Below, piece by piece: positions 36,463 to 58,877 of a stretch of 64,000 nucleotides of DNA. A model generated the notes under the pieces. It saw only the letters and a list, made by a program, of their open reading frames with translations, was not told where the DNA came from and did not search any database. The position numbers and the translations under genes were made by a program. Within the stretch, counting starts at the first letter, position 1; each line of letters starts with the position of its first letter. Source of the DNA: Bacteroidota bacterium (GTDB taxonomy: Bacteria; Bacteroidota; Bacteroidia; Flavobacteriales; Flavobacteriaceae); the NCBI GenBank assembly GCA_947447375.1, contig CANFJB010000001.1:62001-126000 (forward strand). Direction: 5' to 3'.

Positions 36463-36533
36463 TAGCCCCGATTGCAATGGAAATCCCACGCTTTTTTGCG
36501 TGGATTGAAATGGAAAGCGGGAATTGCATTTCC
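36463..36533 (-). repeat. Structured intergenic repeat C, downstream of the cox assembly cluster
   Basis: On the plus strand TAGCCCCGATTGCAATGG is followed by the hairpin AATCCCACGC (36482-36491), loop TTTTTT, GCGTGGATT (36498-36506), and then GGAAAGCGGGAATTGC, similar to the other copies. Read on the minus strand it starts about 32 nt after the stop of the small CxxC protein gene. The 180-bp gap also contains, next to the DUF4403 stop, an imperfect dyad of ACCTGAC and GTCAGGT at about 36393-36422, too weak to call a terminator. Confidence 0.82.
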
Positions 36534-36565: not shown

Positions 36566-36835
36566 CTACTTGATTTTCTTTTTATACATTTTATAGACAG
36601 CAAAAAAGGCCAATCCTATCAAAATATATGGGAAAACCATTAGGTAGACGATTCCGTCGTTAATTCCTTTGGCTTTGGCGGTGTTGCCTTCGCTTTCTAG
36701 AGCCGCTCTACACATGGCGCATTGAGCATTTGCAGTGACGGAATAGAAAAAAGAGAATAGAAAAAGGAGTGCAGAGGTATTTAAATTCCTGCGACTTATA
36801 ACATTCAACTTTTGACTTTCGCCTTTAATTAGCAT
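36566..36835 (-). CDS. Small membrane protein with exported CAMC motif, in the cox assembly cluster
   Basis: An 89-residue protein of unknown function. A hydrophobic signal-like segment (about 21-37) ends in VTANAQ, directly followed by CAMCRAALESEGN with Cys39 and Cys42; a second transmembrane helix lies at about 64-83 and a lysine-rich tail ends the protein. If the first segment is cleaved, the CxxC sits at the N-terminus of the mature protein on the periplasmic side. It overlaps the DUF420 gene by 11 bp and is the last gene behind SCO1, so a role in copper or thiol chemistry of oxidase assembly is plausible but inferred. I recall close relatives at the same place in other Bacteroidota. Confidence 0.75.
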   Translation of the reverse strand: MLIKGESQKLNVISRRNLNTSALLFLFSFFYSVTANAQCAMCRAALESEGNTAKAKGINDGIVYLMVFPYILIGLAFFAVYKMYKKKIK

Positions 36836-37367
36836 AATAAGGAGAGATCATTAGGTAAACCAAAACTCCTGTTACAGCAACGTAAAGCCAGATTGGAAAG
36901 GTGATTTTTGCAATTTTTTTATGCTTATCGAATTTTTCAGCTAAGGCGCGAACATACGTTATTAAAACTAGTGGAATTGTTGCAATTGAAAGCGTGATGT
37001 GAGAAATTAATATGAAAAAATAAACATATTTTAAAGCACCTGTTCCGCCATAAGGAGTTGAATCGGTGGTCATGTGATACACGATATAAAGCACTAGGAA
37101 TACTAGTGAGCACCCAATTGCAATTTTCATAAGTAACTCATGTAACTTGCGATTACCGTTTTTGATTGCCATTACAGCAGAAACTAATAAAACAGCAGTA
37201 ATTCCGTTTATAGTTGCGTAGATTGGAGGTAATATTGGCATTGGAGAAACGTTAAAACCTAAATCTTTAAGTTTTACTTTGAATAATACTGCTACAGCAA
37301 CAGGAATTATTATTGATAAAGCGATGATCCAGTTATTGTATTTTTTTTCGATGTTATTCGTTTCCAT
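36825..37367 (-). CDS. DUF420 membrane protein, cytochrome oxidase assembly
   Basis: A 180-residue integral membrane protein with five helices. It matches the DUF420/CtaM family: TINGITAVLLVSAVMAIKNGNRKLHELLMKIAIGCSLVFLVLYI contains the family's H-x-x-L-M element (given in parts: GNRKLHELLMK), VYHMT follows with a second histidine, and YVYFFILISHITLSI a third. In Firmicutes, CtaM is needed for heme A-containing oxidases. It lies 2 bp behind SCO1 and overlaps the CxxC protein gene by 11 bp, consistent with an assembly role. The four conserved histidines could bind heme or copper. Confidence 0.85.
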   Translation of the reverse strand: METNNIEKKYNNWIIALSIIIPVAVAVLFKVKLKDLGFNVSPMPILPPIYATINGITAVLLVSAVMAIKNGNRKLHELLMKIAIGCSLVFLVLYIVYHMTTDSTPYGGTGALKYVYFFILISHITLSIATIPLVLITYVRALAEKFDKHKKIAKITFPIWLYVAVTGVLVYLMISPYYAN

Positions 37368-37369
37368 AA

Positions 37370-38059
37370 TTATTCTTTTAATAAAATTGCTATGTCTTGT
37401 TGTAGGGCTCTAACTCCTTCTTTTTCAATTCCATCATAGTAAAGAATTGGATTTCCGAAGTTGTCTTTTCGACAACGAATATCGCCATTTTTATCTATTA
37501 ATGCAAATAATCCTGAATGTTCGAAACCACCATTCACTTTTGAATTTTGACCAACATAAACATTGAAGCCTTTATTTGCTAGGTCAAAAATTTTAGTTTT
37601 ATCGCCTGTAAGAAAATGCCAATTTGACGATTTAACTCCTAATTTTTGGGCGTGTTCTTTAAGCACTTCAGGAGTATCATTTTCAGGATTTATGGTAATT
37701 GATGCTATTGCAAAATTAGGATTTCCAAAAAAATCGTTTTGAATAGTCAGCATATTCCTATTCATTTTCGGACAAATGCTTGGACAGGTAGAAAAGAAAA
37801 ACTCTAAAACGTATACTTTACCAGAATAGTCTTTATTGGAAATTAATTTGTTATTTTGATCGGTAAGTTCAAATTTTGGCGCTGGCCCGATGGTTAATAG
37901 TTTTGGGTTTTCACTAGAAGAATGATTGGAAACATTATCCAAGCGATCGCCTTTAACTACTTCGCCGTTTTTGATTCTATCAATAATTTTCGGAATGGCA
38001 AAGATTCCAAAAACTAAGATTACAAAGAAGATTCCGATGTATGATTTATTTTTTATCAT
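37370..38059 (-). CDS. SCO1/SenC-family copper chaperone for cytochrome oxidase
   Basis: A 229-residue thioredoxin-fold protein anchored by an N-terminal helix (about 7-23). The copper-binding CxxxC is at Cys92 and Cys96 (STCPSICPKMN) and the third ligand at His181 (GFEHSGLF). SCO proteins load or reduce the CuA site of subunit II, whose gene lies about 20 kb away in the ACIII operon. It lies 8 bp behind a paralogue-like gene without the cysteines and 2 bp before the DUF420 gene. Confidence 0.93.
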   Translation of the reverse strand: MIKNKSYIGIFFVILVFGIFAIPKIIDRIKNGEVVKGDRLDNVSNHSSSENPKLLTIGPAPKFELTDQNNKLISNKDYSGKVYVLEFFFSTCPSICPKMNRNMLTIQNDFFGNPNFAIASITINPENDTPEVLKEHAQKLGVKSSNWHFLTGDKTKIFDLANKGFNVYVGQNSKVNGGFEHSGLFALIDKNGDIRCRKDNFGNPILYYDGIEKEGVRALQQDIAILLKE

Positions 38060-38067
38060 TTTTGAAA

Positions 38068-38709
38068 TTAGATTTGTCGTTCAGCGTTGTGATTTTTCTT
38101 CAATGCCGCTCTGTATTCGTATAAAATAATTTTAAAGTCGTCCAACATTATATTTCCTAATTCAGCTGGTGAAGAAGTGTCGTAACCTTCTTTGTATTCG
38201 CTTTTTTTCTTTCTACCACGAAGGTTTCTTTTTTTGTCTACTATAAACACGTTTGAAGTTCCAAAATCGGCATTAAGTTTGTTTTGCAATTTCATTTGAT
38301 TGTAAAATTCTTGAATTTGATCGGTTGATGCAAATACAAATTGCCACTGGGAGACATCGGTAAATTTTGAAAATTGCTCTACAATATACTTGGCGTCTTT
38401 TTCTGTTCCTAATGGGCATACAACCACAAATTGCAGGTCTTTGAATTCATGATATTGTTGGTAAATTTTTTGATTAAGATTGAAATAATTTCCTCTATTT
38501 TTCAATAAATCAGTTCCTGAAAAACTAAGAATAGTAATTTTATTGTTCAGGGTAATTTTCTTTCCATTCAAAGAATTCCAATTCCCTAAATCAGAAATTT
38601 TCGGAGTTAAAGTTGGTAGAGTTGTAAAACTATTTACTCCTGACGCGAAAAATAGGTAAGCAACAATTGGTAGAATAAACAAGACAAATAGAACTATATT
38701 TTTTTTCAT
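38068..38709 (-). CDS. SCO/thioredoxin-like membrane-anchored protein lacking the CxxxC motif
   Basis: A 213-residue protein with an N-terminal anchor (about 4-20). The order of elements, including KITILSFSGTDLL, QFVVVCPLGTEKD, SQWQFVFAS and TSNVFIVDKKRNLRGR, resembles the SCO/AhpC thioredoxin fold. At the place of the metal-binding CxxxC it reads SFSGTDLLKNRGN, with no cysteine, so it cannot bind copper in the SCO way. It precedes real SCO1 by 8 bp. It could be a structural partner or a chaperone with another ligand. The start at 38709 is the ATG of MKKNIVLF; the frame is open 15 codons upstream, into the promoter and terminator. Confidence 0.7.
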   Translation of the reverse strand: MKKNIVLFVLFILPIVAYLFFASGVNSFTTLPTLTPKISDLGNWNSLNGKKITLNNKITILSFSGTDLLKNRGNYFNLNQKIYQQYHEFKDLQFVVVCPLGTEKDAKYIVEQFSKFTDVSQWQFVFASTDQIQEFYNQMKLQNKLNADFGTSNVFIVDKKRNLRGRKKKSEYKEGYDTSSPAELGNIMLDDFKIILYEYRAALKKNHNAERQI

Positions 38710-38731
38710 TCTTTCTATGAGATAATTTGTA

Positions 38732-38739
38732 CAAAAATA
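38732..38739 (-). promoter_or_regulatory. -7 box TATTTTTG (minus strand) for the SCO-like gene, overlapping a terminator tail
   Basis: Exact TANNTTTG on the minus strand, 22 bp before the ATG at 38709. Its TATTTTT is part of the T-rich tail of the terminator at 38740-38768, so the end of one unit and the start of the next share bases. Confidence 0.55.
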
Positions 38740-38768
38740 AAAAAAGGTACGCAATGCGTACCCTTTTT
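38740..38768 (-). terminator. Rho-independent terminator after the subunit IV gene
   Basis: The minus strand reads AAAAAGGGTACGC, loop ATT, GCGTACC, then a T-run (complement of 38738-38745). It lies 17 bp after the subunit IV stop and divides the ctaB-cox3-cox4 unit from the SCO/DUF420 unit. Confidence 0.9.
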
Positions 38769-38784
38769 ATGAATTAATATGTTG

Positions 38785-39135
38785 TTAAAAATTCCATTTG
38801 ATGGTAGAATTTTTGAAAACTTCAAAAATATAATCTGCTTCGGTTAATAGAATAAACAAAAGGTAGATTACTAAGAAAATTACTGGGATTACTACCACTC
38901 TTCTAAGTATTGCTTTTTCTCCTTCCATGTGCATAAATGCCCATACAATATAATAAGCTTTAAAAATAGTTAGAATATAGAAAATCCAATTTAACAAGTT
39001 CATTCCTAGAAAACGCGTTAAATGTAATGCTTCTGGTTTTACAATTCCTAAGAATACTTCAACAGTTGTTACTACTGATAACAATCCGAAAACAAACCAA
39101 ATTCTTTTTGTGTTAGAAACGTGAACGTCTGACAT
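38785..39135 (-). CDS. Cytochrome c oxidase subunit IV (CyoD/caa3 type)
   Basis: A 116-residue membrane protein with three helices, the size and layout of the COX4-type small subunit of bacterial oxidases (VWFVFGLLSVVTTVEVFLG at the first helix, then FKAYYIVWAFMHMEGEKAILRR). FMHxxGE-like elements recur in this family. It lies 18 bp behind a subunit III gene and is the last gene before a terminator. It likely stabilises the oxidase; its catalytic subunits are encoded in the operon at 55880 and beyond. Confidence 0.85.
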   Translation of the reverse strand: MSDVHVSNTKRIWFVFGLLSVVTTVEVFLGIVKPEALHLTRFLGMNLLNWIFYILTIFKAYYIVWAFMHMEGEKAILRRVVVIPVIFLVIYLLFILLTEADYIFEVFKNSTIKWNF

Positions 39136-39153: not shown

Positions 39154-40182
39154 TTAAACTAGATAGAAAACTGTAAATACGAATACCCAAACAAGATCGA
39201 CAAAGTGCCAATAAAGTCCTACTTTTTCTACCATTTCATAGCTTCTTCTTTTCTCGTAAGTCCCAAGTAGAACGTTAAAGAAAATAATGATATTAATAAT
39301 TACTCCTGAAAATACGTGGAACCCGTGGAAACCAGTAATAAAGAAGAAGAAATCGGCAAATAATTTACTTCCGTATTCGTTTCTTTTTAGGTTTGCCCCT
39401 TCTACAACTAAAACAGCACTTTGTAATCTATGTTCAGATTCTGCTCTTGTAAGAATTGTTTTGTGTTTTATTTTATTTAAAGTAGGGTTATTTTTTGGAT
39501 CTGCTTTAGAAGCAGCATTATCTTCATAAATAACCTCAGTTCTGATTAATAATTCAGGGTGCGCTTTGAAACCGGCTTGAACCTCAGCGACAGTATAGGT
39601 TGGCAAAGAACCTTCTTCCATAAACCATTTTCCTTTGTTTCTTTTTAATTGCTCTCTTTCTTTAGGAAGAGAAGCAGCAAAATCAGAAAGTTTCACTCTG
39701 TGACCGGTATTGTCAACAAATTGAAGTAGACTTCCTCCTTTCGTTTCGATAGCTCCGTATTCACCACGAATAAAGTTTGACCATTCCCAAGCTTGTGAAC
39801 CTACGAATATTAAACCTCCAATAATGGTTAAAAACATGTAAAAAGTAACTTTTGCTTTATTTAGATGATGTCCTGCATCCACGGCTAATACCATTGTTAC
39901 AGAAGAGAAAATCAAAATAAAAGTCATTAATGCTACATAATACATTGGTGCTGAAACACCGTGTAAAAATGGAAAGTGTGTAAACACTTCATCGGCTAAA
40001 GGCCAAGTTTCAATAAATTTAAATCTAGAAAAACCATAAGCAGCTAAAAATCCAGAGAATGTTAAGGCATCTGATACGATAAAAAACCACATCATTAATT
40101 TACCATAACTTGCTCCCATTGGCTCATTTCCGCCACCCCAAGTATTTTCTTCACTATTTGCAGTAGTAACTGTCGATCCCAT
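39154..40182 (-). CDS. Cytochrome c oxidase subunit III with a large soluble insertion
   Basis: A 342-residue heme-copper oxidase subunit III. Helices at the N-terminal side (about 28-50, 78-100, 112-132) and the C-terminal FHGFHVFSGVIINI and GLYWHFVDLVWVFVF are typical. Between QAWEWSNFIRGEYG and LFADFFFFITGFHG lies a charged insertion of about 128 residues (about 145-272; 39367-39750) that is absent in standard subunit III of about 200-260 residues. The insertion is in frame, has no stop and uses codons like its surroundings. A second, shorter subunit III gene is directly upstream (42 bp). Confidence 0.9.
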   Translation of the reverse strand: MGSTVTTANSEENTWGGGNEPMGASYGKLMMWFFIVSDALTFSGFLAAYGFSRFKFIETWPLADEVFTHFPFLHGVSAPMYYVALMTFILIFSSVTMVLAVDAGHHLNKAKVTFYMFLTIIGGLIFVGSQAWEWSNFIRGEYGAIETKGGSLLQFVDNTGHRVKLSDFAASLPKEREQLKRNKGKWFMEEGSLPTYTVAEVQAGFKAHPELLIRTEVIYEDNAASKADPKNNPTLNKIKHKTILTRAESEHRLQSAVLVVEGANLKRNEYGSKLFADFFFFITGFHGFHVFSGVIINIIIFFNVLLGTYEKRRSYEMVEKVGLYWHFVDLVWVFVFTVFYLV

Positions 40183-40224: not shown

Positions 40225-40806
40225 TTATTTAAAGAAATATAAAAACAAAAACAAATATACCCAAAGGAAATCTAGAAAGTGCCAATACATTGCACCAAGC
40301 TCAATACCAAGGGTTTGTGTTGAATTGTATTTTTGTTTAAAATGATTATAAATTATAATTAAAAGTGAAATTAGCCCTCCAGCAAGGTGAGCAAGGTGCA
40401 CGATTGTTACAATATATAAAAAAGTGGTTGTTATAGAACTCGCACTTCCAGTAAAAAAATAACCGCTATCTACAATTTGACGAAAACCTACAAACTGAAG
40501 AATTACGAATACAATTCCGAGTGCAAAAGTAGCTAAAAGAAATGAAGTTGTAGCACTTCTTTTATCTTTTTGTATCGCTTTTTTTGCTAAATGAAAAGTG
40601 ATGCTACAACAAAGTATTGCAGCGGTACTAAAATAAAAAGCGGTTGGTAGCTGAAAGTCTTTTACCCAATCTGCTCTAGATTTACTAACAACAAATGCGC
40701 TTGTTAATCCGGCAAACATCATAAACATACTTACCATTGCAAACAACAAAATCAATTTATATGATCTTGCGTTTCTTTCTTTAACTTCATTGCTTGAACT
40801 ATCCAT
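40225..40806 (-). CDS. Cytochrome c oxidase subunit III, short form
   Basis: A 193-residue membrane protein with five helices. The end MYWHFLDFLWVYLFLFLYF is the characteristic last helix of subunit III, and VTIVHLAHLAGGLISLLIII the preceding one, but the first two helices of canonical subunit III are absent, as in the five-helix forms. It lies 2 bp behind ctaB and 42 bp before the long subunit III gene; the two may form one split or heterodimeric subunit III. It is called heme-copper oxidase subunit III in general terms because its exact position in the complex is not proven. Confidence 0.88.
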   Translation of the reverse strand: MDSSSNEVKERNARSYKLILLFAMVSMFMMFAGLTSAFVVSKSRADWVKDFQLPTAFYFSTAAILCCSITFHLAKKAIQKDKRSATTSFLLATFALGIVFVILQFVGFRQIVDSGYFFTGSASSITTTFLYIVTIVHLAHLAGGLISLLIIIYNHFKQKYNSTQTLGIELGAMYWHFLDFLWVYLFLFLYFFK

Positions 40807-40808
40807 AA

Positions 40809-41711
40809 TTATCTTAAAAATTTATCTAAAATATAAACCAATTGTAATAATGTAATATAAGAAACACTAACTAACATTAGCGTTCTAGCTGATTTTGCAG
40901 TTCTTGTTTGATATAATTTAACAGCGTAAAACAACATCCAAAGCCCTAATAAAAGCACGCCAATTGCAGTGATTTTTGTAATAAAAAATTGTCCTGTAAA
41001 ACCTAAAACTGGCAGTAAAGAAGCTATTATCAACCAAAGAGTGTACAATATTATTTGTAGTGCTGTAGAATTATCTTTTTTTCCTGAAGGCAACATAAAG
41101 AAACCTGCCTTTTCATAATCTTCATATAAAAACCAACCTATTGCCCAAAAATGAGGAAACTGCCAAAAGAATTGTATTAAAAATAAAGTTCCCGCTTCAA
41201 TACCAAAATTTCCAGTTGCCGCAACCCAACCCAACATAAATGGAATTGCTCCTGGAAAAGCGCCAACAAAAACGGCTAAAGGAGTAATGGTTTTTAATGG
41301 AGTATAAACACAAGTGTAAATAAATATTGAAATGGCACCAAACATGGCCGTTTTTTCATTGATGGTATATAAAAGTACAACCCCAATTATAGTTAACAAA
41401 AAAGCAATTGTTAATGCAGCATTTGGAGACATCCTTTTAGAAGGAACTGGACGATTTTTGGTGCGATCCATTAATGCATCTAGCTCTTTTTCAATTACTT
41501 GATTGAATGCATTTGAAGCTCCCACCATGCAATATCCGCCAATTGCAAGTTTCAATAAAACCATCCCGTCTAAAGAATGAATTGAAGTAATTCCTAACAT
41601 AAATCCAGCTATAGATGAAAAAACAACACTTACGGCCAATCTGGCTTTCGTGATTTCTAGAAAATCAGTGTAAATAGATTTAAAGGAAAGTTTGTTTATT
41701 GTAGCGTTCAA
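40809..41711 (-). CDS. ctaB: Protoheme IX farnesyltransferase (heme O synthase)
   Basis: A UbiA-superfamily membrane enzyme that adds a farnesyl group to heme B to give heme O, the precursor of heme A for the aa3 oxidase. About 300 residues with nine helices; the prenyl-diphosphate site is DALMDRTKNRPVPSKRM, preceded by the first motif NAFNQVIEKELD. I start at the TTG at 41711 (LNATINKLSFKS), which lies about 30 bp after a full-consensus promoter; a GTG at 41768 would extend the frame across that promoter, and no ATG is available. It is the first gene of a unit with two subunit III genes and subunit IV. Confidence 0.92.
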   Translation of the reverse strand: MNATINKLSFKSIYTDFLEITKARLAVSVVFSSIAGFMLGITSIHSLDGMVLLKLAIGGYCMVGASNAFNQVIEKELDALMDRTKNRPVPSKRMSPNAALTIAFLLTIIGVVLLYTINEKTAMFGAISIFIYTCVYTPLKTITPLAVFVGAFPGAIPFMLGWVAATGNFGIEAGTLFLIQFFWQFPHFWAIGWFLYEDYEKAGFFMLPSGKKDNSTALQIILYTLWLIIASLLPVLGFTGQFFITKITAIGVLLLGLWMLFYAVKLYQTRTAKSARTLMLVSVSYITLLQLVYILDKFLR

Positions 41712-41739
41712 AGCTGATTTGTTGGTTTTAAAACTGGTG

Positions 41740-41771
41740 CAAAGATACTTTAAAAAATAGCATTTCACAAA
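41740..41771 (-). promoter_or_regulatory. Full-consensus promoter (-33 TTTG, 20 bp, -7 TATCTTTG) for ctaB
   Basis: On the minus strand TTTG (41768-41771), a 20-bp spacer and TATCTTTG (41740-41747). The predicted start near 41733 excludes the upstream GTG at 41768 as the translation start and favours TTG at 41711. Confidence 0.7.
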
Positions 41772-41824: not shown

Positions 41825-42568
41825 TCAATAAGAAACCGAGTCAGATTCGCCACTTGAAATAAGTTTTGCTGCAGAAGTTCCAATTCTTTTTACCCCTAAA
41901 CGAATCAAATTTATCGCTTCTTCATGATTTCTTACACCACCCGCCGCCTTTATTGGTAAGGGCGATGCGTTTTCAAGCATCATGATAATAGATGGAAGAG
42001 TTGCGCCGTTTGGCAAATTGTCTTTGGTTTTATAAAACCCTGTTGATGATTTCACAAAAACATTCGGATAAACGTCTTCTTTGAAATTGGAAATAACAAC
42101 ATTTTTAATCAATGTTGAAAGCTGGATTATCTGTTGGTTGTTTAGGGCTGCAACTTCTATAATCCATTTGATTACTTTATTGTTTTGGGTTGCAAATTCA
42201 GTGCATTTTAGAATTTCTTCTTTTACAAGAAGTGTATTTCCTTTTTTAAAAGCTTCATAATTACATACAAAATCCAAGTCGTCAGCACCATCAATAATGG
42301 CTTGTTTTGCTTCTTTAATTTTTTTTAAGTAATTGGAATTGCCTTTTGGAAAATCGATAACAGTTCCAATATTGACTTTTGAATTTTGATCCAAAATCAT
42401 TTTCCTGGCTAGTGATACCATTTCTGGTCGGATCATAACGAGCTTGAATTTCTCATCAATTGCTTCTTGAATACAATTTACGATCAGCTTCTGATTTTCA
42501 ATCTCGCTGATTCCTGCTTGCTCAGCGGTTTTTAAGTAGGTAGAATCCAAAAAAGATTTTATATCCAT
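41825..42568 (-). CDS. deoC: Deoxyribose-phosphate aldolase
   Basis: Cleaves 2-deoxyribose 5-phosphate to acetaldehyde and glyceraldehyde 3-phosphate in nucleoside salvage. The 247-residue TIM barrel has the Schiff-base lysine in NVFVKSSTGFY (about 170-180) and the second active-site lysine in PIKAAGGVRN (about 202-211). The N-terminal part, with FLDSTYLKTAEQ, shows the expected D/T residues. It lies 24 bp behind a VanZ-like gene on the same strand and may share a transcript with gcvH and vanZ-like; no exact -7 box precedes it. Confidence 0.96.
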   Translation of the reverse strand: MDIKSFLDSTYLKTAEQAGISEIENQKLIVNCIQEAIDEKFKLVMIRPEMVSLARKMILDQNSKVNIGTVIDFPKGNSNYLKKIKEAKQAIIDGADDLDFVCNYEAFKKGNTLLVKEEILKCTEFATQNNKVIKWIIEVAALNNQQIIQLSTLIKNVVISNFKEDVYPNVFVKSSTGFYKTKDNLPNGATLPSIIMMLENASPLPIKAAGGVRNHEEAINLIRLGVKRIGTSAAKLISSGESDSVSY

Positions 42569-42592
42569 AGCTTCGAAATATTTAAGTATGAA

Positions 42593-42973
42593 TTAGATTT
42601 CGCTCTTTCTTCTGAAATATTGAAACAATACCAACGTTATTAAAGCTGTAAAAGCTCCTGAAACATTTGAAATTACGTCTAATATATCTCCTTTTCTGGA
42701 AGTGGTAAAAGCTTGTTGCGAAAACTCGATTACAATTCCGAAGACCATTGAAACAAAAAACAAAATTACAGGAGCCTTATAGTTAGTTATTTTAGTGTTT
42801 GAATTAAAATACAAATACCAAAGTATAATAAACCCAAAGTGAAATGCAAAATGTGCCAGTTTATCAATGTTATTAATTTCAACTTTAGGCAATTCACTTG
42901 CTGGTTCTAAACATAGAAGCAAAATAGAACAAGTCCAAATTAGCGCTATTGATAAATAGATATTTTTACGCAC
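42593..42973 (-). CDS. VanZ-family membrane protein
   Basis: A 126-residue protein with four transmembrane helices and the VanZ pattern: [32 protein letters not shown] and the acidic [13 protein letters not shown] (about 100-112). Members of this broad family are found in many genomes; only the Enterococcus VanZ has a teicoplanin link, so no resistance should be inferred here. It overlaps the gcvH 3' end by 8 bp. Confidence 0.85.
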
Positions 42974-43346
42974 CTATTAGTGCTTTATAATCATCACTTG
43001 ATAATAAATCATCCATTTCTGAAGCGTCAGAATATTTAACTTTAACCATCCATCCTTTACCGTAAGGATCTCCATTTACAGTATCAGGGTTGGATTCTAA
43101 ATCGTCATTAAATTCAATAATTTCTCCTGATAATGGTAAGAATAAATCAGATACGGTTTTTACCGCTTCAACCGTTCCAAAAACTTCGTCTTTAGCTAAG
43201 GTTTGGTCTAAAGTTTCCACTTCTACATATACAATATCACCCAATTCTTTTTGAGCAAAATCAGTGATTCCCACTGTTGCAATTTCACCATCAATACTAA
43301 CCCATTCGTGGTCTTTTGTGTACTTTAAATTTGAAGGAATATTCAT
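42966..43346 (-). CDS. gcvH: Glycine cleavage system H protein
   Basis: A 126-residue lipoyl carrier that shuttles the aminomethyl group from P- to T-protein. The lipoylated lysine is Lys63 in [13 protein letters not shown], and the start [20 protein letters not shown] is canonical. The other glycine cleavage genes are not in the window. It has its own -7 box in the 65-bp gap after sprA, and its 3' end overlaps the VanZ-like gene by 8 bp, a coupling seen in flavobacteria. Confidence 0.97.
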
Positions 43347-43381
43347 TTTTAATTTTAATTATAATTTATAAATAGTTTTTA

Positions 43382-43389
43382 CAAAGGTA
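43382..43389 (-). promoter_or_regulatory. -7 box TACCTTTG (minus strand) for gcvH
   Basis: Exact TANNTTTG on the minus strand, 35 bp before the gcvH ATG and 22 bp beyond the sprA stop. No -33 TTG at the usual distance is seen. Confidence 0.55.
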
Positions 43390-43411
43390 TTATTTACAAT
43401 TCTATTATTTA

Positions 43412-46400
43412 TTAATTTCCGAAATTATATCTAAGTGTAAATCCAGCTCGAATATTTGTCATAGGAAATGAAGTTGAAACCACCGCTTTTGAGAACGAAT
43501 GGTCATAATAAAATATAGTGGTTAAATTTTTGCTTAATGAATAATCAGCAGTTAATTTAGCTGACCATAAATTCTGCCCTCCCGCCAATTGATTGTTATC
43601 GTAATCTAAATAACGAACAATTGTTTGGTTATTTCTATAAGAGAAATCGGCTTTAATATTAATATCTCCTTTTAAAACCCCTTGCGCATTATCGGCAAAT
43701 TTTGAAGAAATAGCTACGTCTTTAAATCGATATCCCATTCCCACAACATATTCTACACCGCTAACTTCGGTCAATAAATTATTATCAAAACTCATAGACA
43801 AGGCTCTGTCTTTTTTCATTTCTGCTAAAAATTTCATTGAATTTTTAAGTTCAAAATCAACTCTAATTAAAGGATTGAATTGTTCTACCAAATTCACATT
43901 GGCAATAATAGTTTTATTCAAGAAATTTCCACCTTTATCAACTCCATTTGGATTTAGATTGTATTCTAAATTAGATCTAAATGAATTTATAGTGTAAGAT
44001 GCTCGGTAACTATGTTGAACTGAGAATCTTTTGAAGTTTTCTTTAAAAAATTCATACCTCATTAAACCGTTATATTTTGCAGTCCAGTTCGGAATTGGAA
44101 AATCTCTAAACGCAGATAGAGATACTCCTTTTGCAGATTCTCCAATTTTATCACTTATAGCTCCTGTGTAAGCCGCAAGGAATGACGGAAGTAAAACCGC
44201 TTGACTGTTTTTTCCAAATCCAACAGGATATCCTTCAAGATCCAATGGATAAGTTGTAGAATTATAATATTGCTGTGCTAAACGATTGGCAACAATAATT
44301 CTATTTCCTCTGAAATCATTAAATGCCGATGATTCATTAATGTCACTATTTCTAAAAGCAGTTTTAATCATTATTGTCGAAATGGCAAAATTACCGGTGC
44401 TATAAGGTGATCTAGAATTATATTGACCTGCAGAAACATCAAATTGTTCTGAAAAATTATCGGCATAAGTTCTATCTGCAGTTAAATCAATTTTAAAATC
44501 TGGGAACAAATCCATATTCGCAGTTACGTTCAATGTTTTATTAGTTACTTGCGTAAAATTCTGATTGAATTCAGGGTAATTTGTTAACCAACCGTTTTTG
44601 GCAGCTTCATATCTCACATCGTCCTGGGATCCAAAAACGAAACCTAATGTAGGCTTAGAAGTTCCTAAAAATCCTAATCCTGGGAGATATCCAGGAAGTG
44701 CCGTTCCTTTGTTTTCGGTGTAATTAATTTGTATATTTTTTACGCTTGTTAGAATTCCTTTAAGACCAGAGATAAATAAATTATCGTCAGAAACATTTTG
44801 TTGCTGTTGATTATTTACCACTTTTTGACCAGGAATAGGAGCTGTTTTTGGCGCTTGTTGAACTGGTTTTTTGGTATTTTTTACCAATCCTATATATCTG
44901 TAAAATGACTCCATATTAAATGAAGTATTTAATTTCTGAGCCGCAGAATTTTGAATTGTATTCCCTAAATTATAGATAGTTCCATCTGTTGCTTCTATTG
45001 ATGTTAAAGCCGCTGATGATTTTTGCCAACTGTAATTTCCGGTGTAGGAATAGGTCGATTTTATAAAACTAAACAATGGGATTTTATTGATTGGTAAATC
45101 ATAATTCATTGTCAATTGTTGTGTGTGCTGATTTGGATCTCCCACATCCCAGTATTTGTCCCAAATAGTTACTGTATTATCGGGCATGTTATTGTCATTA
45201 ATATAATTTCTAACAATATTATTTGATGATGCCGTAAAGTTTAATTTCAATGCTTTGGTCAAATTATAATTGAACCCATATTGGTAATTAAATAAATAAT
45301 TTCTTCTGTATAATGGATCTAATCCTATACCTGCCACTTCCACCTGACGGAATTCTTGACGGTTGTATTGTCTAATAATATTGGTGCTAAATGAAATATT
45401 TGACGGTAAATAATTAAAATTGAATTCACTTAACAACCTCCAATAATCACTTTTCTTGAATAGTTTTGTTTTTTTGAATGGCTCAAATGGTTTTGGTTGA
45501 AATGTATAAGCATAATCAACAGTTGTATTTACTTGCTTATCTTGATAGCTTTCTATTTCAAAATTATGACGTTGAACTTCATTGTAAGAATACGATAATG
45601 TTACGTTTTCAGGGTCATAAATATGAGGTTTTTGTTTTTCACCTCTTTCTTTTTTTACTCCAATAAAGTTAATACTTCTTCTTTTTGTAAAATCAATTGC
45701 TCTGTCTCTAATGTTGTCTCTTTCCGCTTGATTAGAAGTTACATCTAAAAGTTGTTGCAATCTAATATCTTGATTGAACGGATCGTATTCTGGAGTAATC
45801 GTTTCTTCTCCAATTGCATAATTAAATGGCAAATTGATTCCCCATTTTTTTGGTAATAATTTTCCAATACTTAAATTGGTAACCAAATTATATTGGAATA
45901 AATCTTCACGACTTCTTTCATTCGGACCTTGTTCTAAAGACCCAAAACCAACGGTACTTTTCTTAGTAGATGCTGATATGGTTGCTAAATCAGCTAAATT
46001 GGTGTCTAAATTAGCCAAGGCCGCCATACCACCTTTGTTGTCCATTTCGGCTATTCTAAGTTCGTTAAACCAAACCTCACCACGAATATTACTTGTATTT
46101 GTTGATTTGTTTTTAATACCAACCATTAAGGTTCTAACCAATCCAAAATTAGGATTACCTCGAATTCCAATTCTTAGTTTCCCTCTACTTGTATTTGTTG
46201 CCAATGTAGGATCTAAAACATCGTCATTAATAAATCGGATTCCATTGATATCTTCAGCCGGTGCATTTCCGCTTAATGCTAATACTTTTAACTGAGTTAG
46301 TAAATCCAATGGCAAGTTAATTTCATTTAATTCAGGCCATACTTCAGATGGTGAAGACGCACCTTCTGGTGTCACTTTTAAAGGTATTTCAACTTGATAG

Positions 46401-49400
46401 AAATTCTGTGTGAAGTCATTTCCAAATCTTATAAAACCAACCATTTGATCATTTTGAAGCGGAGTTGGATCTGAAGGTGAAGGAAGTGCTTCAGCATGTA
46501 AGAACATTTTTAATTTTTTAAACTGACGCATGTCAACACTGACATTTTTAAACACAGCTCTTGAATCTCCTGGTTGCAATCCGGCGCCGCCAACTCTCAT
46601 AGCTAGAGATTGTTCGTTCTGATTGATAACAGAATTATTACTATATAATTGTTCTCTTACAACTCCAGGAGGAGACACGTAACGAATAGGACTTCTATTT
46701 CCATTTTCTTGAATATTAACAGTAAGAACGTCTAAATCAGTGTTGTCATCAGAAGGATTAATATCAGAAGCATCAAGTGTATTCGTGTAACGTCTCCATT
46801 CACCACGAACTAAATCTAATGCACCAAAACGAACGGTCATTTTATCACTAAAACCAGTCATAAACATACGCATGTAACCAATAGATCTGAAATCTGTAAT
46901 TCCACCAATAACATTTTCTGGTTGTGAAATTGGAATTTTAAATTGTATCCATCTTGCACGAGTTGGATTTGCTCCAGTTGGTAAATTGGCAGCATCAGTT
47001 TCTCTAATATCCGTAACATATCGGTCTACGCCAATGGTCATGTTTTTATGTAAATCGATGCTGTATTCAAAATAAGCATTGATTGTGTTCATGGTGTTAT
47101 CGCGGTTAATATCTTCAACATCAGGCAACGTTGTTGAACCTCTGTTTGCATCAGTTACATCTACAGGAGAGTTTCCTTGTGTTCCATTATAGTTTTTATA
47201 TCTTTCTTGAACATTTCCTTCTGCAGCTAAATAATACTCATAATCATCGGCAGATGGATCAGGATATCCAGAGAAATTTGGAAATTTAGTTGCTTCTTCA
47301 TTATTATTTAAACCGTCTAATCCAATATCTTGATTTGATCTATTGGCAGGATTGGTATCAAATGCATAAATTAAAGATTGTGATGCTGGCACATTACCCC
47401 AAATAGGCTGGGGAGTGACTAAAACTTGGTCAGCACCAAGTCCGTTTTCAAATTGCTTTCTACCATCTTTTAATACGTCTTCAGAAATTGACCCTAGGTT
47501 AAAATAAATTCTTCCCGTGTTGGTAATCGGAGCTTCACTAGATAAATTTCCCGGATCATAATACGGATCCATTAACCAAAATTGTAAATACTCTACATTG
47601 CTTTGTTCAAAATTTGTAGAACTCAATGACCTCATTATCCCTCCAAAATTACCCTGTGGATTTGGCAATTGATTTGTAGCTGCAGCAGCAGGATTATAAT
47701 TATAGGCTCCTCTTTCTTTTGGATAATAAGCTAGGTCTAATGTATTTACAACTTGCGTTTGTCCAACAGCAATGTCGGTAACTGGATAAAGTTCTTCGCT
47801 GTAAATTCTTCTTGTTGAATTGTAAGATATGTCTTGAATTGAAACTCCCGATGGTCTTGAAGCATAAAATGAAGGATCAATACTATACCAAGATAATTTT
47901 GCTCTTTTAAAACCGTAGCTTAAATCTGTTGCAGAAGCATTAAAATCATAATTACTTCTAGCTGACTTTTCAGGCGTTGATGATAAACTCCATGAAAATG
48001 GGGATCTCATGTCGATTGATGTTTGTGAACCTTCAAAATCATCAACATAAATTGTAGATTCTCCTTGAAATTTATCTGCACTTGGAGTATCTGGTTTTAG
48101 GAAGGCAACTTCGCCTCTGAAAGATAAATTTGAGGCTACATCAGTATCAACATTTGGCAATTTATTTACTAATCTTGTGAAAAATGGAACTTCAGTAGAA
48201 AAATTAGTATTGAAACCAAAAATAGTATTATTCACAGATTCTTGTCCGTAACTCGATTTTTGAGTAAACGGTTTTTCTGATAATTTTAAAAATGTAGCTC
48301 CAACTAAAAATTTATCAGAAATTTTATGTTCCACATTGAAGCCCATGAATCTTCTGGTTTGTTGACCAAAAACAGCATTGTTTTCTAATGAAACATTAAT
48401 TGGGGTATTCGATGCTTGAAGTGAAGGGTCTAAAATTTGAACTTTACCCAATTGATAATTTACGCTATAATCAACTCCTTCAACCAAAACACGACCACCA
48501 GCGGTAACTACCACCGATCCTTTTGGCACATTGAAAGCCCCAATTGAAATTCCATCGCCACCTGAAGATTTAAATTTTCCTTTTAATTGAAATTTATTTT
48601 TGTCGCTATCTTGCAATGCCGTCGCTTGAGTTTGGCGATACATATTTCTGTAAACATATTTAGTTTGGTTGGCATTGTAGTTCCCAATATTATAATCTTC
48701 AGTGCTATTATTTCTTAATTTTTCAAATAAGTGTTTTCCAAAAGGTTCTACTGTTGTAAATATGATTCTTCCATTTTGTGAATCAACTGTAAGTCCCGGG
48801 ATAAAATCAAAAAAACCATCACCACCAGTTTGCGGATCGTTATTATAATTTAATTTATCTACATTAAATACTTTCAATAATGGCGTGCTTGTTACTAAAT
48901 CTTGAGGCTGAGGAAGTGGAGATACTAAATTAATGTAGTTTAAAGGGGAAGGATCTGTGTATAAAATATTGAATTTAAAATCGGCTTGTTGCAATTGAAA
49001 AGCACCTGGAATTTGATAAATATTTTTCATCATCAAGTTCCAAATTGGCGTTGTAACATGTGTTGTAGGATTTTCTACGCTTGTCAAATTACTTTTCAGC
49101 ATTTTCAAAATTAAACTCTGCGTTGAAACAGAAGTTGGTTGATTAGTCCCAGGTGTTACACTTCCCGTTTCAGTCGCTTGAACTCCATCAGTTCCAAATT
49201 CACCCACTTGGTAAACCACATCGCCAATTGTATATTGATAAGCTACGGCTAAAACTTCATCGTTAGCCAATTTTTGTTGTAACGAAATATATCCTAATTG
49301 AGGGTGAAATGTAAATTCTGAAGAAGTCAATTTTCGAGCATTTTCTAATTTAGAATAATCTAAACCTTCACTAACAGTTACTCCGTTAAACCCTGAACTT

Positions 49401-50665
49401 GCAGTTACAATTTCTCTAATATTTCCATTTAATCTACCGCCATTATCTATTAATGCAGGGTCATATTTATTATTTTTATTATCGGAAGGACTATTTGGTG
49501 GAGCAATAAAAAATCCTGTTGAAGGGTTGGCTACAACAATTTCGTTATTATTTAGACCTGTAATTTGCGATTCACCTAAATCTTGAAGCGCAATAATATT
49601 TCTTAAATTATTGTTGGTTGTTGTTACTCTATTCTGTCTATTAGTGATCCAAGCTTCAACTCTAGTTATTTGAACTCTACTATTTATAAAAGGGTAGTTT
49701 TTTAGTGATTCGTCGTATTTATTTCTGAAATATTGTGAAAGAAAAAAGTGACGATCAGCATCATATTCTAATGCAAATAATTCAAATTCTTGAATGGTTC
49801 CTCCGCCCTGAGAAGTTACCGATTTTGTTTGAGACTTTTGTTCAGAGAAAACTCCCGTTACTGTAGTTTTACCAAATTGAAATTGCGCTTTTACTCCAAA
49901 TAAACTCTGAGCTCCCCGAATTAATGAAGTATTTAGTGGCATACTTACATTTCCAACTTCAATTTTTTGGATAATATCATCTTCATTGGCTTTGTAATCT
50001 GGGTTGTATTCTAACTTAATTAAATTTTGAAATGCAAATGTAGATTGAGTGTCATAATTAGCATTTACATTTAATCGAGTCCCTACTTTACCCATTAAAC
50101 TCATGCTTATTCTTTGATTAAAATCAAATGTTGTGGTTGAACTATTTTGAGTAGAAAAGGAAGGGTTATCCTGTTTTGTATAACGAACTCCCAAATCCAT
50201 TTCAACAGAACCCGTTGGTTTTACATCGATGGTGTTTCCTCCAAATATAGTTTCAAAAAAACTATTGTTCACATAATATTTAGGCAATAAATCTTTTTTA
50301 GCTTCTTCAGAACCTTTCTTAACTCCATCAATTGCATCCAGTTTTTTCTTATAATAATTTCGAATCGATTCCTTCAAAACCATTGATTCGTATTCTTTTG
50401 GAGTTAGAAATTTTGGATAATTTATGGAGTAACCAGCTATAGTACTTGTAAAAACATACCGATCGGTTTTTGGGTCATAAACATATAAATTTACAACACT
50501 TGGTGGATTGCTCATGCCAATTTGCCCCACCGAATAACCCATTTTGGTTGAGTCTTGAACGGCGGTATTGTCTTGAGCTTGAAGGTTAAACCCAGAAATT
50601 AATACAAGCAATAGAATACTTGTTTTAAATATGAAATTTCTGTTTTTTATATATATTGTTTTCAA
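43412..50665 (-). CDS. sprA: SprA (Sov), giant T9SS outer-membrane translocon
   Basis: A 2417-residue outer-membrane protein. In Flavobacterium johnsoniae, SprA forms a 36-strand beta-barrel, the pore through which T9SS substrates leave. A signal peptide (TSILLLVLISGFNLQAQ) is followed by the family start (NPPSVVNLYVYDPKTDRYVF) and a long series of beta strands with large loops, ending with the aromatic strand AGFTLRYNFGN. Its length matches known SprA proteins (about 2400). ruvA lies 3 bp upstream on the same strand, the typical ruvA-sprA arrangement, so sprA is probably transcribed from the ruvA promoter. The gene shows no frameshift and a uniform AT-rich composition. Confidence 0.97.
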   Translation of the reverse strand: MKTIYIKNRNFIFKTSILLLVLISGFNLQAQDNTAVQDSTKMGYSVGQIGMSNPPSVVNLYVYDPKTDRYVFTSTIAGYSINYPKFLTPKEYESMVLKESIRNYYKKKLDAIDGVKKGSEEAKKDLLPKYYVNNSFFETIFGGNTIDVKPTGSVEMDLGVRYTKQDNPSFSTQNSSTTTFDFNQRISMSLMGKVGTRLNVNANYDTQSTFAFQNLIKLEYNPDYKANEDDIIQKIEVGNVSMPLNTSLIRGAQSLFGVKAQFQFGKTTVTGVFSEQKSQTKSVTSQGGGTIQEFELFALEYDADRHFFLSQYFRNKYDESLKNYPFINSRVQITRVEAWITNRQNRVTTTNNNLRNIIALQDLGESQITGLNNNEIVVANPSTGFFIAPPNSPSDNKNNKYDPALIDNGGRLNGNIREIVTASSGFNGVTVSEGLDYSKLENARKLTSSEFTFHPQLGYISLQQKLANDEVLAVAYQYTIGDVVYQVGEFGTDGVQATETGSVTPGTNQPTSVSTQSLILKMLKSNLTSVENPTTHVTTPIWNLMMKNIYQIPGAFQLQQADFKFNILYTDPSPLNYINLVSPLPQPQDLVTSTPLLKVFNVDKLNYNNDPQTGGDGFFDFIPGLTVDSQNGRIIFTTVEPFGKHLFEKLRNNSTEDYNIGNYNANQTKYVYRNMYRQTQATALQDSDKNKFQLKGKFKSSGGDGISIGAFNVPKGSVVVTAGGRVLVEGVDYSVNYQLGKVQILDPSLQASNTPINVSLENNAVFGQQTRRFMGFNVEHKISDKFLVGATFLKLSEKPFTQKSSYGQESVNNTIFGFNTNFSTEVPFFTRLVNKLPNVDTDVASNLSFRGEVAFLKPDTPSADKFQGESTIYVDDFEGSQTSIDMRSPFSWSLSSTPEKSARSNYDFNASATDLSYGFKRAKLSWYSIDPSFYASRPSGVSIQDISYNSTRRIYSEELYPVTDIAVGQTQVVNTLDLAYYPKERGAYNYNPAAAATNQLPNPQGNFGGIMRSLSSTNFEQSNVEYLQFWLMDPYYDPGNLSSEAPITNTGRIYFNLGSISEDVLKDGRKQFENGLGADQVLVTPQPIWGNVPASQSLIYAFDTNPANRSNQDIGLDGLNNNEEATKFPNFSGYPDPSADDYEYYLAAEGNVQERYKNYNGTQGNSPVDVTDANRGSTTLPDVEDINRDNTMNTINAYFEYSIDLHKNMTIGVDRYVTDIRETDAANLPTGANPTRARWIQFKIPISQPENVIGGITDFRSIGYMRMFMTGFSDKMTVRFGALDLVRGEWRRYTNTLDASDINPSDDNTDLDVLTVNIQENGNRSPIRYVSPPGVVREQLYSNNSVINQNEQSLAMRVGGAGLQPGDSRAVFKNVSVDMRQFKKLKMFLHAEALPSPSDPTPLQNDQMVGFIRFGNDFTQNFYQVEIPLKVTPEGASSPSEVWPELNEINLPLDLLTQLKVLALSGNAPAEDINGIRFINDDVLDPTLATNTSRGKLRIGIRGNPNFGLVRTLMVGIKNKSTNTSNIRGEVWFNELRIAEMDNKGGMAALANLDTNLADLATISASTKKSTVGFGSLEQGPNERSREDLFQYNLVTNLSIGKLLPKKWGINLPFNYAIGEETITPEYDPFNQDIRLQQLLDVTSNQAERDNIRDRAIDFTKRRSINFIGVKKERGEKQKPHIYDPENVTLSYSYNEVQRHNFEIESYQDKQVNTTVDYAYTFQPKPFEPFKKTKLFKKSDYWRLLSEFNFNYLPSNISFSTNIIRQYNRQEFRQVEVAGIGLDPLYRRNYLFNYQYGFNYNLTKALKLNFTASSNNIVRNYINDNNMPDNTVTIWDKYWDVGDPNQHTQQLTMNYDLPINKIPLFSFIKSTYSYTGNYSWQKSSAALTSIEATDGTIYNLGNTIQNSAAQKLNTSFNMESFYRYIGLVKNTKKPVQQAPKTAPIPGQKVVNNQQQQNVSDDNLFISGLKGILTSVKNIQINYTENKGTALPGYLPGLGFLGTSKPTLGFVFGSQDDVRYEAAKNGWLTNYPEFNQNFTQVTNKTLNVTANMDLFPDFKIDLTADRTYADNFSEQFDVSAGQYNSRSPYSTGNFAISTIMIKTAFRNSDINESSAFNDFRGNRIIVANRLAQQYYNSTTYPLDLEGYPVGFGKNSQAVLLPSFLAAYTGAISDKIGESAKGVSLSAFRDFPIPNWTAKYNGLMRYEFFKENFKRFSVQHSYRASYTINSFRSNLEYNLNPNGVDKGGNFLNKTIIANVNLVEQFNPLIRVDFELKNSMKFLAEMKKDRALSMSFDNNLLTEVSGVEYVVGMGYRFKDVAISSKFADNAQGVLKGDINIKADFSYRNNQTIVRYLDYDNNQLAGGQNLWSAKLTADYSLSKNLTTIFYYDHSFSKAVVSTSFPMTNIRAGFTLRYNFGN

Positions 50666-55879: not shown

Positions 55880-57682
55880 TTAATGATGAAGCACTTCTTC
55901 TCCTTCTTTCATCGGAACGTTTTGAGGAACAAAATCATCATCATGACCTGGTTTACTGTAATCGTAAGGCCATCTGTGAACTTCAGGGATTGCTCCTGGC
56001 CAGTTTCCGTGGATGTGTTCGATAGGCGCTGTCCATTCTAATGTATTCGATTTCCATGGGTTTTGCACTGTTTTCTTACCGTAGAAAATACTACTAAAGA
56101 AGTTGTACAAGAACACTAATTGGAATACTCCACCGATTAAAGCGAAAGTTGTAATTAAAACGTTTACGTTTTGTAAATCATCAAATAATGGGAAGTTTGT
56201 GTTAGTGTAGTAACGTCTTGGTAAACCAGCCATTCCTATAAAGTGCATTGGGAAGAAAACTCCGTAAGCACAAATTGCTGTTACCCAAAAGTGAACATAT
56301 CCTAAATTCTTGTTCAACATTCTACCAAACATTTTTGGGAACCAGTGATAGATTCCGGCAAACATTCCATAAAGTGCCGAGATACCCATTACTAAGTGGA
56401 AGTGAGCAACAACAAAATAAGTATCGTGAACATTAATATCTAAAGTGCTATCTCCAAGTATAATTCCTGTTAAACCACCTGTAATAAATGTAGAAACCAA
56501 TCCGATTGAGAATAACATTGCTGGATTTAACTGTAAATTACCTTTCCAAAGAGTTGTAATGTAGTTGAAAGCTTTTACTGCGGATGGAATTGCAATTAAC
56601 AACGTTGTAAAGGTAAACACCGATCCTAAGAATGGATTCATTCCTGAGATAAACATGTGGTGACCCCAAACGATTGTTGATAAAAATGCAATTGCAAGAA
56701 TTGACATAATCATCGCTCTGTAACCGAAGATCGGTTTACGAGAGTTGGTAGCAATTACTTCAGAAGTGATTCCTAAAGCTGGTAATAATACGATGTATAC
56801 TTCAGGGTGACCTAGGAACCAGAATAAGTGTTCGAATAAAACTGGAGAACCACCTTGATTGTGTAAAACTTCACCAGCAATATAGATATCTGACAAGAAG
56901 AAAGAAGTACCAAAACTTCTATCCATGATCAATAATAATGCTGCAGATAATAATACAGGGAAAGATACTATACCAATAATTGCTGTAATAAAGAAAGCCC
57001 AAATTGTAAGTGGCAATCTTGTCATTGACATCCCTTTTGTTCTTAGATTAATAACTGTAACTACATAGTTCAAAGATCCTAATAAAGAAGATGCGATGAA
57101 AATAGCCATAGAAACTAACCATAAAGTCATTCCCATTCCTGATCCAGGAATTGCTTGTGGAAGTGCACTTAAAGGGGGATAAATTGTCCAACCAGCGGAT
57201 GCAGGTCCAGCTTCTACAAATAAAGAGCAAACCATAACCACACTTGAAAGGAAGAACAACCAATAAGATATCATATTTAATGTCCCCGATGCCATATCCC
57301 GTGCACCAATTTGAAGTGGAATTAAGAGGTTACTAAAGGTTCCACTCAGAGCTGCCGTTAATACAAAGAATACCATTATGGTACCATGAATTGTTACCAA
57401 AGCCAAGTAGATATCATTAGTCATTACTCCATTTGGAGCGAATTTTTCTCCTAAAAAGAAGCTAAATACTTTGAATGATTCTTCTGGCCATGCCAATTGC
57501 ATTCTGAAAAGCATAGATAAACCCACACCAATAACTCCCATTACAATACCAGTTAACAAGTATTGTTTAGCAATCATTTTATGATCAATACTAAAGATGT
57601 ACTTAGTTACAAAAGTATCTTTATGGTGGTGTTCGTGTTCGTGATCGTGTTCTAAATCGTGTCCGTGACCTTCTGCTGACAT
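55880..57682 (-). CDS. Cytochrome c oxidase subunit I (aa3 type)
   Basis: The catalytic subunit, with low-spin heme a and the heme a3-CuB site. The 600 residues form 12 helices. Ligands visible are the heme a histidine in TIHGTIMVFF, the CuB histidine cross-linked to tyrosine in WFLGHPEVYIVLLP, the CuB pair in WGHHMFISGM, and the heme histidines in VAHFHLVMG. The D-channel region and the ending FYGKKTVQNPW are as in type A oxidases. Residues 6-20 hold eight histidines (HGHDLEHDHEHEHHH), a possible metal-binding tail. It is the last gene of the ACIII operon, 25 bp behind subunit II. Confidence 0.97.
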   Translation of the reverse strand: MSAEGHGHDLEHDHEHEHHHKDTFVTKYIFSIDHKMIAKQYLLTGIVMGVIGVGLSMLFRMQLAWPEESFKVFSFFLGEKFAPNGVMTNDIYLALVTIHGTIMVFFVLTAALSGTFSNLLIPLQIGARDMASGTLNMISYWLFFLSSVVMVCSLFVEAGPASAGWTIYPPLSALPQAIPGSGMGMTLWLVSMAIFIASSLLGSLNYVVTVINLRTKGMSMTRLPLTIWAFFITAIIGIVSFPVLLSAALLLIMDRSFGTSFFLSDIYIAGEVLHNQGGSPVLFEHLFWFLGHPEVYIVLLPALGITSEVIATNSRKPIFGYRAMIMSILAIAFLSTIVWGHHMFISGMNPFLGSVFTFTTLLIAIPSAVKAFNYITTLWKGNLQLNPAMLFSIGLVSTFITGGLTGIILGDSTLDINVHDTYFVVAHFHLVMGISALYGMFAGIYHWFPKMFGRMLNKNLGYVHFWVTAICAYGVFFPMHFIGMAGLPRRYYTNTNFPLFDDLQNVNVLITTFALIGGVFQLVFLYNFFSSIFYGKKTVQNPWKSNTLEWTAPIEHIHGNWPGAIPEVHRWPYDYSKPGHDDDFVPQNVPMKEGEEVLHH

Positions 57683-57707
57683 ATTCGTTTACTTTAAATT
57701 ATAAATA

Positions 57708-58877
57708 TTATTTCATGGCAACTTTTACCTCTTTTGCAGGGGTAATTACTGCGGTATCTTTTGCTTTAGCTTCTGTTTTAGCTCCTTCTGCAGGGGCTTG
57801 ACTTGCTAATTTTTCTGCTTTTACTTCTTGAGTAACTGTAGTTTGTTTTTTCAACCATTTAGCATAATCTTCAGGAGTATCAACTACAATTTTCATTTGC
57901 ATGTTGTAATGAGAAGCTCCACAAATTTTGTTACAAAGTAATAAGAAATCAAATTCATATGGGTCTAAAGCGGTTTCCCCATTAGCAACTAATTCAGCAC
58001 TTTTTTTAGTACGAATTGCGTTGATATTAGCAACCTTAGCAACCATATAAGGTAATTCTCTATATTCGGCTGTAGTGTAAGTTGGTTCAAAAGCAAACTC
58101 AGTAACCATTCCTGGCACACAGTTCATTTGAGCTCTAAAATAAGGCATATAAGCAGAGTGCAAAACATCTTGAGAACGCATTTTGAAGTGTACTTTTTTT
58201 CCTTTTGGGATGTGTAGCTCTTTGGAAACTACATCATCATTAGAATAAGGATCTTCCACATCAACACCTAAAGTATTTACACCTTCAATGTATCTTACAT
58301 TTGCTTTTCCTAATACATTATCGTGTCCAGCATAACGAGCAGTCCAGTTGAACTGTTGTGCATACAATTCAATTGTTACGGTATCTTCATCGTCTTCAAT
58401 AAACATAATATTTGTCCAAGCATACAATCCGAAAAGGATTAATCCAGCCAATACAATTGCAGGAATAACTGACCAAATTACTTCTAATTTATTATTATCA
58501 GCGAAATACAATGCTTTATTACCTTCTTTACCTCTGTATTTAAAAGCGAAATAATGTAATAATACTTGTGTAATTGCTTGAACTATAAAAATCAATACCC
58601 AAGTAACATTCATTAAATCATCAATTAATGGACCATGAGCAGATGCCGGAGTATGCAATACTAAAGGTCCCCATGTAATCAATCCATATATTGTAAAAAT
58701 ATAGATGAATGCTAAAAAACCAAACATTAAATACCCTTGCGTATTATTATCTTTGTCATCTGCAACTTGAGTCTTATTTCTATATTCACCTACTTGAGAT
58801 AAATCGAAAATCTTGGTCAATTGCCACAATGCAATAGCTAATAAAACTAAAACTATAATTACCAACAAACTTGTCAT
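57708..58877 (-). CDS. Cytochrome c oxidase subunit II (CuA subunit)
   Basis: A 389-residue subunit that takes electrons from the cytochrome of complex III into CuA. Hydrophobic helices lie at about 3-21, 50-70, 92-112 and 133-155, the last two being the canonical pair; the first two are an N-terminal extension. The cupredoxin domain contains the CuA ligands His240, Cys315, Cys319, His323 and Met326 (CNKICGASHYNM). The usual Glu between the cysteines is Lys317. An insertion of about 40 residues precedes the ligand loop, and an Ala/Lys/Thr-rich tail follows it. It is flanked by actF (19 bp) and cox1 (25 bp). Confidence 0.95.
   Translation of the reverse strand: MTSLLVIIVLVLLAIALWQLTKIFDLSQVGEYRNKTQVADDKDNNTQGYLMFGFLAFIYIFTIYGLITWGPLVLHTPASAHGPLIDDLMNVTWVLIFIVQAITQVLLHYFAFKYRGKEGNKALYFADNNKLEVIWSVIPAIVLAGLILFGLYAWTNIMFIEDDEDTVTIELYAQQFNWTARYAGHDNVLGKANVRYIEGVNTLGVDVEDPYSNDDVVSKELHIPKGKKVHFKMRSQDVLHSAYMPYFRAQMNCVPGMVTEFAFEPTYTTAEYRELPYMVAKVANINAIRTKKSAELVANGETALDPYEFDFLLLCNKICGASHYNMQMKIVVDTPEDYAKWLKKQTTVTQEVKAEKLASQAPAEGAKTEAKAKDTAVITPAKEVKVAMK

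Follow-up and report, generated by a model that had tools for sequence, protein, structure and literature searches.

The window, a stretch of 64,000 nucleotides from a Bacteroidota genome, encodes a small protein with a CAMC motif. Judged from its sequence and distribution, this protein is likely to be dedicated to assembly of the heme-a/CuA (aa3/caa3) oxidase in many Bacteroidota, probably as an unnamed helper in preparing the copper site of this oxidase. The open reading frame (36566-36835, minus strand) extends from an ATG to a TAG and its product has 89 residues (MLIKGES...TANAQCAMCRAALES...KGINDGIVYLMVFPYILIGLAFFAVYKMYKKKIK). Homologues were present in 34 of the 40 genomes searched, the genome of the window counted, which confirmed that the frame given in the preliminary description is real. 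The closest named relatives belong to the Flavobacteriaceae, most of them to Flavobacterium.

The order of elements read from the sequence pattern was a signal peptide, QCAMC, a linker, one transmembrane (TM) segment and a basic tail, in agreement with the exported membrane protein proposed before. The C-A-M-C codons (residues 39-42) are located at 36710-36721 (minus strand). In the alignment of the homologues, the Gln was preceded by Ala or Ser and, two positions further back, by small or aliphatic residues. This pattern fitted cleavage by signal peptidase, and the mature protein would probably start with Gln-Cys-x-x-Cys after removal of the signal peptide. The earlier proposal that the mature protein opens with the CxxC is supported by these small residues and stands as a prediction from the pattern. 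Basic residues of the homologues averaged 3.2 before the signal core, 4.7 in the tail and 1.8 in the linker, which held on average 3.0 acidic residues. We read the CxxC as lying on the periplasmic side and the basic tail on the cytoplasmic side, with one C-terminal helix as the anchor; because the pattern is positive-inside, the CxxC would be periplasmic even with an uncleaved signal. The predicted structure, with two helices, was too weak to use (mean pLDDT 72.9, pTM 0.35).

The start of the CAMC gene overlaps the end of a DUF420 gene of the CtaM/YozB family by 11 bp (36825-37367, minus strand; PF04238, E 2.6e-46), and ctaM is preceded by a gene for a SCO1/SenC copper/thiol chaperone (37370-38059, minus strand; PF02630, E 6.6e-28) with a CPSIC motif and a later His. 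A Sco-like neighbour (ScoL, 38068-38754, minus strand) without a convincing family match or a CxxxC lies between COX4 and SCO1, a position found in the window's own family; its similarity to SCO1 reached only E 0.016, and it may be a non-catalytic assembly partner. The same strand carries oxidase subunit IV (COX4_pro, 38785-39135), a long form of subunit III (39154-40182, 342 aa), a short form (40225-40806) and heme O synthase CtaB (40809-41768; TIGR01473, above cut-off), the subunit IV and short subunit III genes being assigned by family matches. In the long form, the COX3 match is interrupted by an inserted soluble part of some 100-odd residues and so falls into two stretches. Subunit I (55880-57682, minus strand), for which the genome gave a single COX1 match, and subunit II (57708-58877, minus strand), with the CuA-type motif CNKICGASHYNM, are located about 19 kb from the CAMC locus (55880-58877 together), beside ACIII-type genes (ActB-F, named by eye). 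A search of the window's genome for FixO, the marker of cbb3, gave no match.

Terminator-like hairpins were observed just 3' of the CAMC gene (36485-36504, minus strand) and between COX4 and the Sco-like gene (38740-38768, minus strand), among 10 such sites found versus 4.9 expected. Given these flanking hairpins, ScoL-SCO1-CtaM-CAMC could be a transcription unit of its own. Further upstream, before ctaB, are genes for DeoC, VanZ-like, GcvH and SprA-like proteins (41825-50665, minus strand; names by eye). They recurred at this place in the named loci, all four in order in 36 of 80.

A sample of 296 genomes of the phylum, each at least 90 percent complete and including that of the window, was searched for homologues. 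The CAMC profile matched 71 of them; one match (L158 in G112) was spurious, as it had no CxxC and lay inside a 620-residue frame, and it was dropped before homologues were counted. Downstream of ctaM in other classes a CPxC form was met that is similar in size and layout. Comparison of the CAMC-like and CPxC-like alignments showed them to be related (hhalign probability 96.1, E 3.4e-9). In 12 genomes of the window's class, CAMC loci were matched by the CPxC profile as well. Members of the joint family were detected in 88 of the 296 genomes, or in 86 without two weak carriers (G043, E 2.3e-4; G246, E 1.6e-6). The joint family is defined by a signal, a CxxC and one TM segment with the pattern I-x-[YF]-[LM]-[ML]-x-x-P, and the two groups agreed with this definition; the Pro of the pattern was kept in 175/175 CAMC-like proteins (as P69) versus 14/19 of the CPxC group.

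The 205 loci encoded 194 distinct proteins, 175 CAMC-like and 19 CPxC. Both cysteines, whose loss among homologues had been named beforehand as a result that would speak against the proposal, were kept in 194/194, a figure that is partly self-selected since the searches favour sequences with CxxC. From the motif onward, 193 of the 194 contained no third Cys and 169 contained no His. The exact CAMC spelling, which the preliminary description had put forward as the motif, occurred in only 151 of the 194; elsewhere I, V, Q, A, N, G or S stood in place of the Met (for example CSIC or CPNC). Because the Met varies among homologues, the conserved motif is CxxC. Within the CAMC-like group the Gln before the motif was found in 174, Met in 163, N59 in 171, G61 in 174 and I62 in 173, and the CPxC group had Met in one member. 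In family f18 the Met was lost in 9 of 10 members, which spelled the motif C-[SA]-[IV]-C.

Two loci stood apart. A distant CPVCFG relative with a weak score (L220 in G043, 10298-10495, minus strand) is located in a cox cluster between COX2 and COX3, and may point to a wider family. The locus L055, on a contig labelled as a Bifidobacterium breve MAG, was of flavobacterial type (60% identity match) and is probably a contaminating contig. A plasmid collection gave no match to the CAMC protein or to a distant CPVC relative.

The gene order in relatives bore out the tight linkage to SCO1 and DUF420 described earlier. In 79 of 80 named loci ctaM was directly upstream of the CAMC gene (78 by the automatic test), the exception being L054 with no ctaM in the 3.6 kb upstream. 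With the first ATG taken as start, the spacing in these 79 loci ranged from -67 to +116 bases; 58 overlapped, 42 of them by exactly 11, as in the window. The 11-bp overlap was the commonest spacing, therefore start and coupling are conserved. The order CtaB-Cox3-Cox3-Cox4-ScoL-SCO1-CtaM-CAMC was found in at least 76 of the 80 loci.

Gene order was then compared across the phylum, a check suggested by the preliminary description. Among the 65 carriers of the window's class, ctaM neighboured the CAMC gene in 51, including G102 where it faces the other way, was 7 kb off in one, and in the remaining 13 was at another site or on a different contig; ten of these 13 genomes belonged to f18. In G196 the separation may be a contig break, because both genes lie near contig ends and are convergent in its genus-mate G102. 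Among the 23 carriers of other classes, ctaM was next door or within 0.7 kb in 13, and the other 10 had the gene within about 6 kb of COX2. The family gene was thus near ctaM or COX2 in 75 of 88 carriers; its most widely shared partner is the oxidase cluster, and ctaM is its usual close neighbour. The order Cox2-Cox1-Cox3-Cox3-CAMC-SCO1 was found in L153 and L156 with ctaM elsewhere, therefore the oxidase linkage is independent of ctaM. The gene also followed Cox3 (L154, L157, L218, L219) or SCO1 (L213, L214, L216). In f18 (L142-L151) it was unlinked yet kept in 10/10 genomes, with no cox markers within about 5-7 kb around it. The commonest f18 neighbour, present at 5 of 10 loci and directly upstream of the CAMC gene in four, has roughly 600 aa and looks by eye like a translation GTPase. 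The CAMC gene of L150 has VanZ and GcvH as neighbours and is away from cox genes.

The occurrence of the family followed that of the heme-a oxidase genes. Among the 296 genomes ctaM was detected in 149, ctaA (heme A synthase) in 176 and the COX2 domain in 219. Both ctaM and ctaA were present in 88/88 carriers of the CAMC family, and of the 147 genomes that lack ctaM not one had the family gene. As the genomes are related by descent, the counts do not represent independent events. Within the window's class (73 genomes in the sample), 65/65 genomes with ctaA and ctaM carried the gene and 8/8 without them lacked it. Among these 65 carriers, one (G091) gave no COX2 domain match, the domain having been missed, and nine gave no match for cbb3. 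The COX2 domain alone was no predictor, for many genomes of other classes had COX2 without the CAMC family.

A cbb3 oxidase contains CuB and has neither CuA nor heme a. Six of the eight class non-carriers possessed cbb3 and lacked ctaM, ctaA and COX2; these relatives were also without the CAMC gene, and therefore the protein is no general CuB factor. The tie to an oxidase proposed earlier thus holds for the heme-a/CuA type. Against a universal need for the protein, 61 of the 149 ctaM genomes had no detectable homologue, 35 of them from family f37. Ten cox/act stretches of non-carriers, five from f37, contained no convincing candidate, and the few short CxxC frames in them were judged by eye to be chance.

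No known family accounted for the protein. The window protein gave nothing above the curated cut-off in Pfam and NCBIfam. The widest Pfam match among 14 CAMC members covered six, the lowest E was 5.1e-4 (SCAMP, one member), and the lowest E for seven CPxC members was 0.01; all were taken as chance. In the PDB the best matches were a designed protein (E 0.25) and a RING finger (E 0.016). For the FeoB-associated Cys-rich membrane protein family (PF12669), 6 of 14 members matched with a best E of 0.0032, and the window protein scored 13.8 bits versus a cut-off of 27, so that membership was rejected. A lipobox has the pattern [LVI][ASTVI][GAS]C at the first Cys. The homologues did not fit it, the residue before the first Cys being Q in 174/194, and a lipoprotein was rejected; a few CPxC members come near the lipobox by eye. 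No paper on the protein was found in the openly licensed literature, outside which most subscription journals lie, and the motif letters as a query returned only unrelated words among the matches listed.

Comparison with known systems set the protein apart from each. SCO1/SenC (PF02630) is likewise periplasmic, membrane-anchored and oxidase-linked and has a Cys pair, but it has a thioredoxin fold, a CxxxC and a His ligand and is encoded by a separate gene alongside, whereas the CAMC protein has about 50 mature residues, a CxxC and no conserved His; there was no profile match, and the CxxxC with His is missing. CcmH of cytochrome c maturation System I (PF03918) is exported with a CxxC near the mature N-terminus and a C-terminal TM segment, a layout that recalls the CAMC protein, although the CAMC protein is much shorter. 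The CcmH profile matched one of 14 members without significance (E 0.093), and membership was rejected. ActG of the Rhodothermus ACIII is also small, with one predicted TM segment and a place near act/cox genes, but the available part of its description gives it as being without redox cofactors (PMC5928083); this sets it apart by description and not by sequence. CtaM shares with the CAMC protein a common cluster, presence in every sampled carrier and a part in oxidase assembly, but has four or five TM segments according to part of PMC9145763, also the source of the name CtaM for the DUF420 protein, and the window's CtaM gave no match to the CxxC family.

Other copper factors were sought in the window's class in a separately drawn sample of 99 genomes, of which 12 were known carriers, three known non-carriers and 84 without oxidase typing. 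Cox11/CtaG, PCuAC and Caa3_CtaG were each detected in 0/99, and the 14 control genomes gave one, three and two matches, respectively. Cox11_CtaG and, tentatively, Caa3_CtaG resemble the CAMC protein as copper-site factors for heme-a oxidases, but the CAMC protein has no family match to them. PCuAC and CtaK resemble it in its proposed role of small periplasmic copper donor, but these donors for CuA use His/Met ligands (PMC9145763, in part). According to the same partial source, CtaM is required for active aa3/caa3 oxidase and acts late in its assembly. Hemes a and a3 are still made in its absence, and a role at CuB or at some other late step was suggested (PMC9145763). In 2026 CtaM was put forward as a copper exporter (PMC13344008, in part).

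Our best explanation as a whole, which we put forward with some reserve, is an exported dithiol assembly factor that acts with CtaM and SCO1 by copper relay. After export the signal would be cut off and Gln-Cys-x-x-Cys exposed on the periplasmic face, while one C-terminal helix and the basic cytoplasmic tail would tether the protein to the membrane. The two cysteines would bind Cu(I) at the outer membrane face, the copper probably coming from the CtaM side, and the protein would pass it to SCO1 or straight to the oxidase, covering part of the job done elsewhere by PCuAC and Cox11. The relay step itself, with copper binding, direction and partner deduced from context, is quite possible. With less confidence, these proteins could be an undescribed family of minimal copper-relay proteins, with a bare periplasmic CxxC and a single anchor, that would carry Cu(I) from CtaM to SCO1/CuA (or CuB) and replace PCuAC and Cox11 in the window's class and, as the CPxC form, in some other classes.

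Copper relay is favoured here over a thiol reductant, in which the tethered CxxC, supplied with electrons by a CcdA-like donor, would hold cysteines of SCO1 or of the CuA site in the reduced state and carry no copper. The reductant reading is rather unlikely, but the absence of His and the loss of Met (9/10 in f18, 18/19 in CPxC) weaken the copper reading and bring the reductant close behind. In its favour are the two invariant cysteines, the near absence of other metal ligands, the unconserved Met and the CPxC spelling of one subfamily, which fits redox motifs; TlpA does this job in Bradyrhizobium. CuA assembly needs reduced cysteines (PMC9145763, in part). However, a mature part of about 50 residues is too small to hold a thioredoxin fold, and the matches to Thioredoxin_4 (3/14 members, best E 0.078) and CcmH were insignificant.

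Small single-TM proteins are common accessory subunits, and some family members sit inside the cox cluster. The protein might belong to the oxidase itself or to an ACIII-oxidase supercomplex, as a structural or accessory subunit in which the CxxC forms a structural disulfide. The window COX2 reached at best 55.6 bits against the PDB and no close solved relative of this oxidase was seen, therefore the absence of the CAMC protein from structures says nothing on this point. The overlap with ctaM nevertheless fits an assembly factor better, and the gene was kept while unlinked in f18, although a subunit gene could be unlinked too; we regard a subunit as improbable. If the protein served CtaM instead of oxidase assembly, by sensing copper or by helping to store or export it, this would agree with the copper sensitivity of a Bacillus ctaM deletion, reported in part of PMC13344008, and with ctaM in all carriers, but ten genomes of other classes have the gene near COX2 and not adjoining ctaM, and such a role appears very improbable.

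Copper relay, if it is the role of this protein, would bear on the copper route to the heme-a oxidase of the class, which is not explained by the factors found beyond SCO1 and CtaM in a search that covered Cox11/CtaG, PCuAC and Caa3_CtaG. Deletions of act genes in Flavobacterium johnsoniae are described in part of PMC8552683. With an unnamed, co-inherited dithiol protein encoded in overlap with ctaM, the copper route becomes directly testable in this tractable species, and the CAMC protein may help to tell what CtaM itself does.
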